Assembly (NCBI RefSeq): GCF_007991655.1
Contig: NZ_BJYT01000001.1
Span: 496,001 to 560,000, forward strand
Reading direction: 5' to 3'
Source of the DNA: Segetibacter aerophilus
GTDB lineage: Bacteria; Bacteroidota; Bacteroidia; Chitinophagales; Chitinophagaceae
DNA: 64,000 bases
Both the position numbers and the translations under genes were made by a program. The notes under the pieces were generated by a model. It did not search any database. It was not told where the DNA came from and saw only the letters and a list, made by a program, of their open reading frames with translations. Shown here piece after piece: positions 1-39,831 of this stretch; the stretch's first letter is position 1; every line of letters starts with the position of its first letter.

Positions 1-2607
1 CGCATTACAAAATCGATCTAGTTCAGTTTTGGGTTCACTCTCTGTTGGCTCAATCATGATTGTTCCGGCAACAGGGAAACTTAAAGTAGGAGCGTGGAAG
101 CCATAATCCATTAAACGTTTTGCAACATCTTCTGCTTCAATCCCAAGGCTTTTAAATGGACGGAGGTCAACAATAAATTCATGGGCGCAAGTATTGTTCT
201 TGCCACTATATAAAATTTTATAGTGTCCTTCGAGCCTTGCCTTCATGTAGTTCGCATTTAAAATAGCATATTCAGTTGCCTTTCTCAACCCTTCTGCTCC
301 CAGCAGTTTGATGTAAGCGTAACTAATCAGCAAAATACTTGCAGACCCATAAGGAGCGGCGCTTACTGCATTGGCGCTACTTCCTTTATGGATGTTTACG
401 TGCCCCGGTAAGAAAGGTGCAAGTTTATCATTCACGCAGATCGGTCCCATTCCGGGTCCGCCACCGCCATGGGGGATTGCAAAGGTCTTGTGTAGGTTAA
501 GGTGACAAACGTCAGCTCCAATAAACCCCGGGGCAGTTAAGCCTACCTGCGCATTCATGTTAGCGCCATCCATATAAACCATTCCTCCATTCTCATGAAT
601 GATGTTACAAATCTCACGAATACTTTCTTCGAATACCCCGTGGGTGCTCGGGTACGTAACCATTAAGCCTGCCAGGACATCTTTATATTTTTCGGCGTTC
701 TTTCTTAAATCTTCCACGTCAATATTTCCAGCTTCGTCACATTTTGTAACTACAACTTTAAATCCAGCCATCACTGCACTTGCAGGGTTTGTTCCATGTG
801 CAGAAATAGGGATGAGTATTACGTTTCTGTGGGCGTCGTTCCTGTCTTCATGATAGTCGCGGATCGCCAGCAAACCGGCGTACTCTCCTTGTGCACCACT
901 GTTCGGCTGTAATGACGTAGCTGCAAAGCCGGTAATATTACTAAGCCATTTTTCCAATTCAATCACTATTTGATGGTAACCTTGCCACTGATCTGTTGGC
1001 GCAAAAGGATGCATTTTTGAAAATTCAGGCCAGCTTACAGGAATAAGTTCTGTAGCCGAATTTAATTTCATTGTACAACTACCCAAGGGGATCATTGAAT
1101 TGTCAAGACTGAGGTCTTTGTTTTCCAAAGACTTTAAATAACGCATCATCTCCGTCTCGCTGTGGTGCGTATTGAAAACCGGATGCAAAAGAAAAGTAGA
1201 CGTACGAGTCAGAGACGTTGGAATATTTTCAAGGTGGTCATTGTATTCAAACATAACTCCCGCATCTCCCATCCCTTTGATCTCGGCAAACAGGTGGAGT
1301 ATATCAAGCACGTCACATTGCGCGGTTGTTTCATCTATTGCTATTCCAACAAAACCATCGTTAAAATAATGAAAGTTGATTTGCTGCGCTTCAGCGAGGT
1401 TACGTATTGCAGCAACATCATCCACTTTTACTTTTATCGTATCAAAGTAGTGCCTGTTCACCTGTTCGAAGCCCATCTCAACAAGCTCATTGCTGAGAGA
1501 ATTTGCAAGAAGACTAACGCGCTTCGCAATGTTTTTCAATCCTTCTGGTCCATGATAAACCGCATACATTGCAGCCATGTTTGCAAGCAAAGCTTGAGCA
1601 GTACAAATATTGCTGGTTGCTTTTTCACGACGGATATGTTGTTCGCGGGTCTGCAACGCCATACGCAAAGCCCTGTTACCTTCAGTGTCAATGCTTACAC
1701 CTATTATGCGTCCTGGAATAACCCTTTTAAATTCATCCTTAGTAGCAAAGAAGGCTGCATGTGGTCCGCCAAATCCCATGGGTACTCCAAAGCGCTGGCT
1801 TGAACCAATTGCTACATCAGCACCCAATTCTCCCGGGGGGGTCAATAATGTAAGAGCAAGCAAATCAGTAGCGGCAACGACTTTCGCATCTACGGCGCGA
1901 GCTTTTTCGAAAAAGCTTCGATAGTCTTCAACGGCACCATCACTATTTGGATATTGAACAATTACACCAAAAAATGTTTCATCCAGTACCGCAGTTTTAA
2001 AGTCACCTGTTACCAACTCTACCTTAATCGGAGTGGCACGGGTAAGAAGCACATCCCTCGTTTGAGCAAACACGTTTTGATCAACAAAAAATCTAGGGGC
2101 GGTTATCTTATCGCCCTTATTCTTGTTGTTAAACAACATAGCCATTGCTTCCGCGGCAGCAGTTCCTTCATCAAGCAATGATGCATTGGCAATTGGTAAC
2201 GCTGTCAGGTCACTAACCATCGTTTGAAAGTTCAAAAGACTTTCCAAACGTCCCTGGGCAATTTCTGCCTGGTAGGGCGTGTATTGTGTGTACCAACCTG
2301 GATTTTCAAAAAGATTTCGAAGGATGACAGTTGGGGTAATGGTGTCGTAGTAACCTTGTCCTATATAGTTTCTAAAGACTTTATTTTTCGATGCTGTTTT
2401 CCTAAGTTCTTTTAAATATTCATGTTCGCTTACCGGGCCTGCAACATCTAAAGCACCTGCAAGTCGAATATCTTTCGGCACTGTTTTCTCTACCAGTTCA
2501 TCAAGTGTTGCCACCCCGATGGTTTGCAACATTTCTACGGTCTCTTGTTCACTCGGTCCAATATGTCTTTCCTGAAATTCCCTTGCCTGTTGTTCAAATA
2601 AGTTCAT
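1..2607 (-). CDS. gcvP: Glycine dehydrogenase (glycine cleavage P protein), 3' end cut by window
   Basis: P protein of the glycine cleavage system: a cytoplasmic PLP enzyme that decarboxylates glycine and hands the aminomethyl group to lipoylated GcvH. The frame opens at ATG (complement of 2605-2607) and stays open for 869 codons to the left edge. Family members have about 950 residues, so some 80-90 C-terminal residues lie outside. The N-terminus has the family motif ERHIGPSE. The PLP lysine is in LHKTF near residue 707, followed by the glycine-rich PHGGGGPG. Both halves (gcvPA-like and gcvPB-like) are in one chain, as in Gram-negative bacteria. No gcvT or gcvH is visible. A copy of the dispersed repeat lies 64 bp upstream in the leader. 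Identification is secure. Confidence 0.97.
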
Positions 2608-37547: not shown

Positions 37548-37733
37548 AGGTTGTCGCTGCTTTTGCAAGCGTTAGCGAGGCAAATTAAGCAATTAAAAGA
37601 ATTGGCAATATTGGAAACGGCTCACTTAAACATCACCATAGGCCCGGTACTAATGATGTTTTTGATATGATTATTCGCTTTCCCCAAAAAGCGGATGGTA
37701 TGTTAATTGTACCCTTTATATAAAATATTCTGT

Positions 37734-37973
37734 ATGAGTAAAGACCAAAATGGAACGTTTCACCCTGGAAAAGGCAAGCCGTCAGGGGCGAATAAAGAGG
37801 AGGGATTAGGGTTTCAAGCAACGCCTCCGGAGAAAATGGAAGAATATCTTGAGATCACAGATAGGTATACTGACGGAGCAGATCAATTGGCCGAAGACGT
37901 TCCCGTTCGACATCCAAACCGAAACACCAGCAAAGGTGAAACAACTAAAACCGGCGAAAACTATAACCAATAA
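37734..37973 (+). CDS. 79-residue KGKPSG/RHPNRNTSKG domain protein
   Basis: A 79-residue soluble protein that aligns nearly end to end with the N-terminal 80 residues of the eRF1-like protein 500 bp downstream. Shared blocks are FHPGKGKPSG (9-18), NKEE, QATPPEKM (about 27-34), EYLE and VPVRHPNRNTSKGE (about 56-69). Few hydrophobic residues are present, so it may be disordered or a short adapter. No known family is recognised. The ATG at 37734 was chosen because it gives MSKDQNG, parallel to the M-x-K-D-x-NG start of the paralogue. It begins a three-gene run on the plus strand, 3 bp before the next gene. Confidence 0.78.
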   Translation: MSKDQNGTFHPGKGKPSGANKEEGLGFQATPPEKMEEYLEITDRYTDGADQLAEDVPVRHPNRNTSKGETTKTGENYNQ

Positions 37974-37976
37974 ATA

Positions 37977-38156
37977 ATGGCACTAAGCAAGCGTGAAAGT
38001 AAAGACAACCCAGTTACCCAGGATGAACCTGCAACGCTACCGGGACCTTTACAAGGCGAGGAGGAATTAAAAGATTACAGTAAGGATGAAGGCGATGACT
38101 TAATTGACAACATGCCTGACAGTCATCCTGAGCCTAGCCCAACAGCAAGCAGTTAA
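37977..38156 (+). CDS. 59-residue acidic protein
   Basis: A short gene from ATG 37977 to TAA 38154-38156, starting only 3 bp after the previous stop. The protein begins MALSKRESKDNPVTQDEPAT and contains LPGPLQGEEELKDYSKDEGD, then a Pro/Ser tail (MPDSHPEPSPTASS). It is highly charged and probably disordered. I know no family. The tight spacing and clean start support a real gene cotranscribed with the 79-residue protein. The third gene follows 86 bp later. Confidence 0.68.
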   Translation: MALSKRESKDNPVTQDEPATLPGPLQGEEELKDYSKDEGDDLIDNMPDSHPEPSPTASS

Positions 38157-38242
38157 CGATAAAAGCATCTCAATCAAGTAGTAGTTACGGTATGTTAACG
38201 AGTTGGCATACCAATTTTAATTAGTCATTTAAAAAGTAGATT

Positions 38243-39730
38243 ATGGCAAAACAAACCATGGGAAAAGACGATAACGGTGTATTTCATCCGGGAAAAGGAA
38301 AACCATCAGGAGTAAATAAAGAAGAGAGCGGTGCCGGAATACAAGCAACGCCACCTGAAAAAATGGATGAATACCTGGAGGTTACAGAAAAATATTTTGT
38401 AAATGATGATGAGCTAGATCCTTCTGTGCCTGTTAGACATCCTAACCGCAACACTTCAAAAGGCGAAGACAGGTATAAAAACGGGGAGAATAAAGAAGAA
38501 ACGAATAAGAGCAACAACCAAACTTTTACCGAGGAAAGAGCGCCCGTAGTTGCCGAGCAATTGCCGGGAGTTCTGACAAGGGAGCGGTTTAAAGAATTAG
38601 CAGATTACAAAGCTGATTATTGCATTTCTATTTTCCTCGGTTCACACTCCTCAGGTGTAGAAGTAAATGAACATTTTGACCCTATTAATTTCAAAAACCA
38701 GTTACAGGAAGTTAGCCGTCGGCTGAGTGATAAAGGACACGACCAGGCGTTTATAGAGCGTTTGCTCGAGCCAGGTTTCGAACTGGTACGCGACAACGAC
38801 TTTTGGACAGAACTATCGCCAGGCCTGGCAGTGTTTATCGCAGACGGATTTTTTAAATACATAAAGATGCCGGTAGTGCCTACTGAAGAGTTGGTGATAG
38901 AGCCATCTTTTTATGTAACGCCACTAATACCAATAATGGCCAGCACCGAATATTTTTATCTGTTGGTTATTAGTAAGCAATGTGCAAAGCTGTTTAAGGC
39001 TGACGCATGGGGTATGCAGATAGTTCCGGTTGAAGGGCTACCACAAAGTATCGAAGAGGTGAAAAGAGTTTCAGGGCTCGATGCAACAACTTATCGAAGC
39101 AGTGAATCTGGACGAAGGGCACCAGCTGTAAGTTTGCCTGGTTCAGTTCATGGCGGAGGTGGAGGTAACCCCGATGGAAAAGACAACATGCTTGTGTACT
39201 TCGAAGCAGTTGACGACCTGCTGTGGGATAAGGTATTACACAAGGAAAATGCACCGCTTCTACTCGCGGCGGTGGAGTATGAAATTCCGATTTATAAGAG
39301 CGCTTGCGATTATCACAACATTTGGCCTGTTGCCTTGACGGGTAATTACGAGCGTGCACAAACTCATGAGCTATACCAGGAAGCAAAAAAGGTAATGCAA
39401 CCTTATTTTGACCAAAGGGTCAATAAGGCGCTAGAGCTTTATATGAACAATTCAGCTAATGGTAAAACTTCGTCCATTGCTGCTGACATCATACCTGCTA
39501 CTTATTACTCCCAGGTTTCTCATTTATTTGTTTGTAAAGGCGAACACATCTGGGGCACTTTCGATGAGATGAACATGCAGCTTCAATTTCACGACACACC
39601 TGATGAAGATGGCGAAGACCTGCTCGATAATGCAGTTGAAAAGACGCTTGCAAACGGTGGAGAGGTATTTTTATTAGAGAAAGAAAAAATGCCGGTCGAG
39701 AGTCAACTGGCAGCAATCATGAGGTTTTAA
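38243..39730 (+). CDS. Fusion of KGKPSG domain with bacterial eRF1-like (baeRF family 3) protein
   Basis: A 495-residue protein. Residues 1-85 repeat the small KGKPSG domain (FHPGKGKPSG, QATPPEKM, VPVRHPNRNTSKGE). A linker rich in Lys/Glu/Asn follows (about 86-105). Residues 110-495 match the bacterial archaeo-eukaryotic release factor family 3: LPGVLTRERFKELADYKADY, the SIFLGSHSSG and DPINFKNQLQEV stretch, FWTELSPGLAVFIADGFFKY, a central HGGGGG, and the last domain LLLAAVEYEIPIYK, then VSHLFVCKGEHIWGTFD and AAIMRF. The release-factor GGQ tripeptide is absent, as in baeRF relatives. It probably acts on ribosomes or RNA under stress (inference from the family). Confidence 0.85.
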   Translation: MAKQTMGKDDNGVFHPGKGKPSGVNKEESGAGIQATPPEKMDEYLEVTEKYFVNDDELDPSVPVRHPNRNTSKGEDRYKNGENKEETNKSNNQTFTEERAPVVAEQLPGVLTRERFKELADYKADYCISIFLGSHSSGVEVNEHFDPINFKNQLQEVSRRLSDKGHDQAFIERLLEPGFELVRDNDFWTELSPGLAVFIADGFFKYIKMPVVPTEELVIEPSFYVTPLIPIMASTEYFYLLVISKQCAKLFKADAWGMQIVPVEGLPQSIEEVKRVSGLDATTYRSSESGRRAPAVSLPGSVHGGGGGNPDGKDNMLVYFEAVDDLLWDKVLHKENAPLLLAAVEYEIPIYKSACDYHNIWPVALTGNYERAQTHELYQEAKKVMQPYFDQRVNKALELYMNNSANGKTSSIAADIIPATYYSQVSHLFVCKGEHIWGTFDEMNMQLQFHDTPDEDGEDLLDNAVEKTLANGGEVFLLEKEKMPVESQLAAIMRF

Positions 39731-39800
39731 AAGCTAGAGGTTTAAAGCTTTTAAAGAGGATTTTGAGGGAAATAGAAATAATCCTGGTTTTAATGAAAAA

Positions 39801-39831
39801 AGCAGCACTCGTACGGGTGCTGCTTTTTTTT
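39801..39831 (+). terminator. Rho-independent terminator after the eRF1-like gene
   Basis: AGCAGCAC pairs with GTGCTGCT across a short CG-rich loop (TCGTACGG), followed by a T run. Confidence 0.88.

Follow-up and report, generated by a model that had tools for sequence, protein, structure and literature searches.

Three adjacent genes lie on the forward strand of the window, by which we mean the whole stretch of 64,000 nucleotides that was analyzed, from Segetibacter, a soil bacterium of the Chitinophagaceae. The first gene (37734..37973) encodes a 79-residue protein that is a free-standing copy of a sequence module (KGKPSG ... RHPNRNTSKGE). The second (37977..38156) begins 3 nt past the module gene and encodes an acidic protein of 59 residues with a pI of 4.1. 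The third (38243..39730) encodes a 495-residue fusion, in which the module (residues 6-84; 38258..38494) is followed by a variable linker (residues about 76-103) and a three-domain core of the Balon/baeRF7 type (residues about 104-495; 38555..39727). Because the long flanking genes are oppositely oriented (an esterase gene and a gene for a HupE/UreJ-type membrane protein upstream, an M16 peptidase gene downstream), we consider the three genes a unit of their own. A sigma54-type -24/-12 promoter-like element, TGGTATGTTAATTG (37696..37709, forward strand), ends 24 nt ahead of the start codon of the first gene. Past the third gene, a strong hairpin whose 3' arm contains a T run (39795..39830, forward strand; -22.7 kcal/mol, z -5.5) is the likely transcription terminator of the unit; it is missing from the list produced by the pattern scan. 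The position of the element ahead of the first gene and not the second, together with the terminator past the third, suggests that the genes are co-transcribed. At E ≤ 0.001, the genome contains no module copies other than the 79-residue protein and the N terminus of the fusion, and it contains one baeRF7 match. A search of the 79-residue protein against a plasmid collection gave zero matches, leaving plasmid carriage unsupported.

The earlier note had described the large protein as an eRF1-like protein of baeRF family 3 that lacks GGQ. A string check agreed with the latter part, as neither GGQ nor NIKS is present. The family assignment did not hold: all three Pfam matches were above their cut-offs, and family 7 scored highest (PF18849, 113.5 bits), ahead of family 3 (PF18845, 84.2 bits) and family 6 (PF18848, 75.8 bits; families of Burroughs and Aravind, PMC6514570, a source covered in part). 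We therefore dropped the baeRF3 label and regard Balon-like as the more informative name. The sole NCBIfam match was the Balon family model NF052287, the "AOC03_06830 family ribosome hibernation factor," at 130 bits against a cut-off of 330; by this score the 495-residue protein is a relative, not an equivalog. In a phmmer search of the PDB, a single sequence was matched, that of Balon (8rd8_B, E 5.8e-13), over query residues 115-495. A core profile built from 21 relatives matched Balon with an E value of 2.3e-31, the next match being at 0.065, and its positions 9-389 aligned with residues 2-369 of 8rd8_B, covering all three domains. These comparisons demonstrate homology between the core and Balon, a ribosome hibernation factor, over the whole length of the core. 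The structural model is in agreement, as a Foldseek search with the predicted core returned Balon and Msmeg1130 at ranks 1-5 (best E 2.0e-22, TM to target up to 0.76), supporting a predicted three-domain aeRF1-like fold, with pLDDT values mostly of 80-95 outside the loop at residues 277-309.

Balon of Psychrobacter urativorans (PDB entries 8rd8, 8rdv, and 8rdw; PMC10901736, covered in part) thus shares with the core whole-length homology, the predicted fold, the absence of GGQ, and a stress-type context, at about 20% identity. The Balon chain has 369 residues; the core profile begins at its residue 2, which leaves no space for the module. The mycobacterial homologues Msmeg1130 and Rv2629 (8v9j, 8v9l, and 8v9k) have the same fold (Foldseek ranks 4, 5, and 11), with 13-14% identity in the structural alignment and chains of 362-375 residues, compared with 495 here. 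Other baeRF7 matches in our class search lie in frames of only 265-427 residues (plus one 62-residue fragment), compared with 496 here, and are therefore taken to be unfused. Among the 30 baeRF7 loci listed from that search, the module was found beside a core only in G633 and beside a core remnant in G707. The part of PMC6514570 covered mentions HPF among baeRF neighbors and does not mention the module.

The module spans ~75 residues, with a KGKPSG block, a helix, and an RHxNRNxxKGE block. The shared blocks to which the earlier note had drawn attention are real: residues 1-77 of the 79-residue protein and residues 6-84 of the fusion are 71% identical (E 3.6e-30), far above chance. The module is also unnamed, as the note had supposed, with no explaining match in Pfam-A, NCBIfam, PHROGs, or the PDB. 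Fourteen diverse members gave nothing in Pfam at E ≤ 1, the NCBIfam search found none, PHROGs gave only matches of E 0.056 or worse, and a PDB profile search gave only matches of E 1 or worse. The PKG(K/R)P stretch is AT-hook-like; we rejected this reading, as Pfam gave no match, and do not use it as an argument. Literature listings outside bioRxiv, with PMC10901736 and PMC6514570 covered in part, showed nothing on the module.

In composition the module is very hydrophilic (GRAVY -1.46) and free of Trp and Cys. AlphaFold predicts it to be mostly disordered save for one helix region, whether fused or alone: in the fusion, residues 1-8, 17-35, and 63-100 have pLDDT <50 and the helix covers residues 38-51, and in the 79-residue protein alone 36 of the 79 residues reach pLDDT 70-90. 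Because AlphaFold docks the module nowhere on the core with confidence, direct module-core contact is unsupported.

A conserved trio is contradicted by the distribution of the 59-residue gene. It occurs in only 3 of 10 Segetibacter genomes and, as a weak match (E 0.004, inside an 822-residue frame), in one other of the 59 genomes searched. Even among the six Segetibacter loci in which a free module stands beside the fusion (the window and L023-L027), it is present in three. We therefore rejected a three-gene cassette as the conserved unit, since this gene is missing from most relatives; judged by its occurrence, it is a lineage-specific, local addition that rides in the unit and lies outside the conserved system.

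In the Chitinophagaceae, a single-sequence query detected the module in 15 of 195 genomes, and the core profile detected the core in 18 of 195 (E ≤ 1e-20). A close core encoded in one long frame is present in eleven of these 18 genomes and is always fused to the module; of the others, G095 has a fragment only and six have distant core relatives. Four of the 15 module-bearing genomes (G038, G048, G049, and G129) have no core at E ≤ 1e-20, three of the four being 75-83% complete. Using the pattern HPNRNT[SIA]K, we collected 28 named loci in GTDB species genomes, comprising 23 fusions and five free modules only. A free copy is found just upstream of the fusion at 6 of the 23 fusion loci, the Ilyomonas copy being truncated.

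A second Bacteroidota family, f61, contains the module in 26 of 201 genomes and the core in 43 of 201 (E ≤ 1e-20). The core was present in 24 of 26 genomes with the module versus 19 of 175 without it (Fisher p 3e-17, uncorrected for relatedness and a guide only); for the close core (E ≤ 1e-120), the counts were 19 of 26 versus 4 of 175. Of the 23 close-core f61 genomes, 16 encode the module in its own gene, with a gap of 2-29 nt to the core gene downstream; this split two-gene form is new here. Co-occurrence of the module, alone or fused, with the eRF1-like protein in other Bacteroidota is thereby supported, with 16 split f61 loci and 28 fused rows in the tree described below. These comparisons show a tie between module and core through adjacent genes in one family and within a single protein in the other.

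This linkage has exceptions in f61. In 10 of the 26 module genomes, no intact core adjoins the module, and two of these have a DUF892-type gene beside it; of the 22 f61 cores included in the tree, 6 lack an adjacent module (1.5 kb on each side), and in two of these six (G1074 and G1115) the module lies ~28 kb from the core, adjoining a DUF892-type gene. One genome (G707, L093) has an intact module beside a decayed core remnant, and in another (L121/L140) the core gene is frameshifted. A module remnant ahead of the frameshifted core of G1244 was considered and rejected, as it consisted of one 27-residue match (E 2.6e-4) that was absent from the profile scan of L140.

We also observed neighbors of free module genes. 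In one f61 genome, a DUF892 (YciE-type) gene identified with Pfam lies directly downstream (L101:1766-2281), and in another f61 genome a like 171-residue ORF lies directly 3' of the module gene (L104:940-1455). In L114, L115, and L117 (about 1736-2029), a conserved ORF of ~93 residues lies no more than 40 nt beyond a more distant module gene; this ORF in L114 had no Pfam match at E values up to 0.01; DUF421 genes lie beyond it in L114.

A midpoint-rooted tree of 61 cores comprised 28 fused rows, 22 f61 rows, and 11 deeper outgroup rows. The fused rows form a single clade (99/88) that is sister to the f61 rows (97/96), and all 50 together are supported at 100/99. In the 11 outgroup rows, the module is neither in the core nor within 1.5 kb on either side. 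Read most simply, the module and the core were joined once, at the base of the 50-row group, whether as neighbors or within one protein, and a single event either created the fusion or split it. Dyadobacter (Spirosomataceae) is nested among the Chitinophagaceae fusions in the core tree, which points to lateral transfer. In the module tree, free and fused rows are intermingled. The taxon label of the metagenome-assembled genome "Williamsia" E01 (L029 and L037) looks wrong, the core of L029 being placed among the Chitinophagaceae fusions.

The cores also differ from Balon in one loop. Where Balon reads THREHP, the 495-residue protein reads SHSSGVEVNE, so the HP motif is missing, and most of the module clade reads TH-x-S/A-G-x-x-V-N-E. 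We take the His-Pro of the Balon loop to be the published HP motif at the decoding center, because it is the sole HP in the Balon chain as aligned. An HP loop was found in 0 of 28 fused rows, 0 of 16 split rows, and 6 of 17 rows without the module. The loss looks older than the module, because the outgroup rows L063, L064, L066, and L067 also lack HP.

To gauge constraint, we compared the window with its nearest relative, L023. The 79-residue gene (pN 0.027, pS 0.60), the fused module (pN 0.005, pS 0.45), and the core (pN 0.044, pS 0.46) yielded substitution patterns that show strong purifying selection on the module, both free and fused, and on the core. The 59-residue gene evolves faster, and its purifying signal is less clear (pN 0.31, pS 0.70). 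Across the Segetibacter-group pairs, the fused module was below the core in nonsynonymous differences per site in 13 of 15. The free copy was below the core in 9 of 15, with one tie and five opposite pairs, all of them involving Segetibacter sp. 3557_3 (L027), whose free copy is more divergent than its core in 5 of 5 pairs. RHPNRNTSKGE had appeared as the conservation peak of the whole protein; we discarded this result as biased by the motif-based choice of loci, and constraint was remeasured on loci from profile or protein searches (16 split pairs and 13 fusions), where this block leads in the fused but not the split set. Mean identity was 0.572 for the module versus 0.557 for the core in the split pairs and 0.550 versus 0.502 in the fusions. 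For windows of 5 and 10 residues, the best of the core surpassed the best of the module in conservation in the split set, where the best-conserved module stretch was PPKGKPSG. By these measures the average conservation of the module roughly matches that of the folded core, although the module is predicted to be mostly disordered.

The upstream element, which the earlier note had missed along with the split form, the single fusion clade, and the predicted disorder, recurs among relatives. The pattern.GG[TC]A[TC]N5TTG. was found ahead of the first gene at 20 of 23 Chitinophagaceae-group loci (all but L029, L032, and L035), compared with a mean of 0.1 and at most 2 in shuffles; it lies at -36 to -52, with 17 of 20 at -36 to -39. 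The element alignment used 18 chosen upstream sequences. Scans elsewhere found it ahead of none of the 7 second genes, none of the 6 Dyadobacter genes, and none of the 16 split operons. Its spacing equals that of the sigma54 consensus, TGGCACG-4N-TTGC(T/A), as given in the part of PMC7910581 covered; GG, A, and TTG stand at the right spacing in the 20 loci, whereas the C after TTG (-12) is present in only 5 of them. Genome-wide, TGGYATRNNNATTG occurs 11 times, barely above the 10 of a reversed-pattern control. Ten of the 11 sites fall outside frames of at least 120 codons, although an AT-rich motif itself favors intergenic DNA, and 9 of 11 lie 24-51 nt ahead of a start codon, that of dnaK included. 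Sigma54 may control the unit through this promoter-like element, but the absence of the element from the split operons and Dyadobacter, the seldom-kept -12 C, and the small margin over the control speak against this.

The element (37696-37709 in the window; L174-L184) is common to the module locus and, within this genome, to the genes of DnaK, a protein of the metallo-beta-lactamase fold, and a beta-barrel outer-membrane protein, which possibly constitute a stress regulon. Two other promoter types were tried and rejected. The housekeeping promoter motif of Bacteroidota is TTG-17..21-TAnnTTTG; it occurred in 1 of 40 upstream regions, a count that shuffled sequences reached as well, and a sigma70 promoter scan gave fewer matches than shuffles. 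Chaperone genes under sigma54 control in Bacteroidota are described in PMC12316311, a source covered in part.

The reading that we favor, with confidence slightly better than even, is that of a stress operon encoding a Balon-like A-site blocker and a dedicated disordered adapter that is supplied in cis or in trans. The sigma54-type promoter would switch the unit on under stress, and the core, by analogy with Balon, would enter the ribosomal A site and block it. The module, as a mostly unfolded peptide whose helix is flanked by the short conserved ends KGKPSG and RHxNRNxxKGE, would dock on a fixed ribosome surface, be it rRNA or a ribosomal protein close to the A site, or else on a co-factor, and this docking would place or hold the core. 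Fused to the core, the module would act in cis; the free 79-residue copy would act in trans and would either increase the occupancy of the same site or be a competitor of the fusion. That the module and the Balon-like protein cooperate at the shutdown of protein synthesis is probable from their genomic association, and the conserved motifs suggest an adapter role for the module, one of the roles that the earlier note had considered. A more specific version, which we consider unlikely, is a two-component Balon hibernation system in this Bacteroidota branch, in which a blocker deprived of its His-Pro contact to the decoding center would need a dedicated, intrinsically disordered peptide, folding upon the ribosome and provided by a neighbor gene or by fusion, with the Segetibacter free copy tuning the system. 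In this version, the tree would suggest that the HP loop was gone before the module arrived and that the two-gene form and the fusion came afterwards.

Hydrophilins and other small disordered stress proteins are hydrophilic and unfolded, and the module shares both traits. It might therefore be a general stress hydrophilin that is merely co-regulated with the core, the fused tail keeping the core soluble in desiccation or cold. Its composition and predicted disorder fit this explanation, as do the free copies beside the DUF892 gene of L101 and the like ORF of L104 or near the DUF421 genes of L114, and the few genomes that have the module without a core. Hydrophilins, however, conserve composition and not sequence, whereas the module has two short, near-invariant ends, an average conservation equal to that of the folded core, and one linked partner, with which it is specifically associated at the 16 two-gene loci and in the 28 fused rows. 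We prefer an adapter to a protective tail because a disordered chain whose exact letters are kept usually binds via short motifs, and we judge the hydrophilin explanation to be somewhat unlikely.

The module may instead recruit a co-factor, such as EF-Tu or HPF/RaiA, in place of the ribosome, and bridge that co-factor to the core. Balon works with EF-Tu and can share a ribosome with RaiA (PMC10901736, covered in part), and this genome has one gene of the HPF/RaiA family; that gene lies on another contig, however, and is thus unlinked to the module, and we hold such recruitment to be decidedly improbable. The mixing of free and fused rows in the module tree would also allow the free 79-residue copy to be a functionless, decaying duplicate of the N terminus of the fusion, and the Ilyomonas limi free copy fits such decay, lacking the second motif (L030), with a match that crosses an in-frame stop (L019). 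The copy in the window, on the other hand, is constrained and carries the conserved promoter-like element; its substitution pattern strongly disfavors decay at this locus, and we give that explanation very little credence.

In its 2024 description, Balon is a lone protein that acts with EF-Tu, and the papers covered by the literature search describe no conserved small partner that occurs both as a neighbor gene and as a fused tail. Under the adapter reading, the two short motifs of the module offer mutable targets, and the locus is a natural case for testing by what means an A-site blocker that lacks the HP loop would hold the decoding center.

Two further observations concern the surroundings of the module. 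A gene for an SPW-repeat membrane protein lies directly upstream of the fusion at 4 of 6 Dyadobacter loci (one BLAST cluster; L042:6507-6962 was scanned), near the fusion in L029 (6157-6573), and about 3 kb off in L027. The free module of L035 (6986-7252) opens with MAKQT, a start otherwise seen on Segetibacter-group fusions, and is perhaps a fusion stripped of its core.
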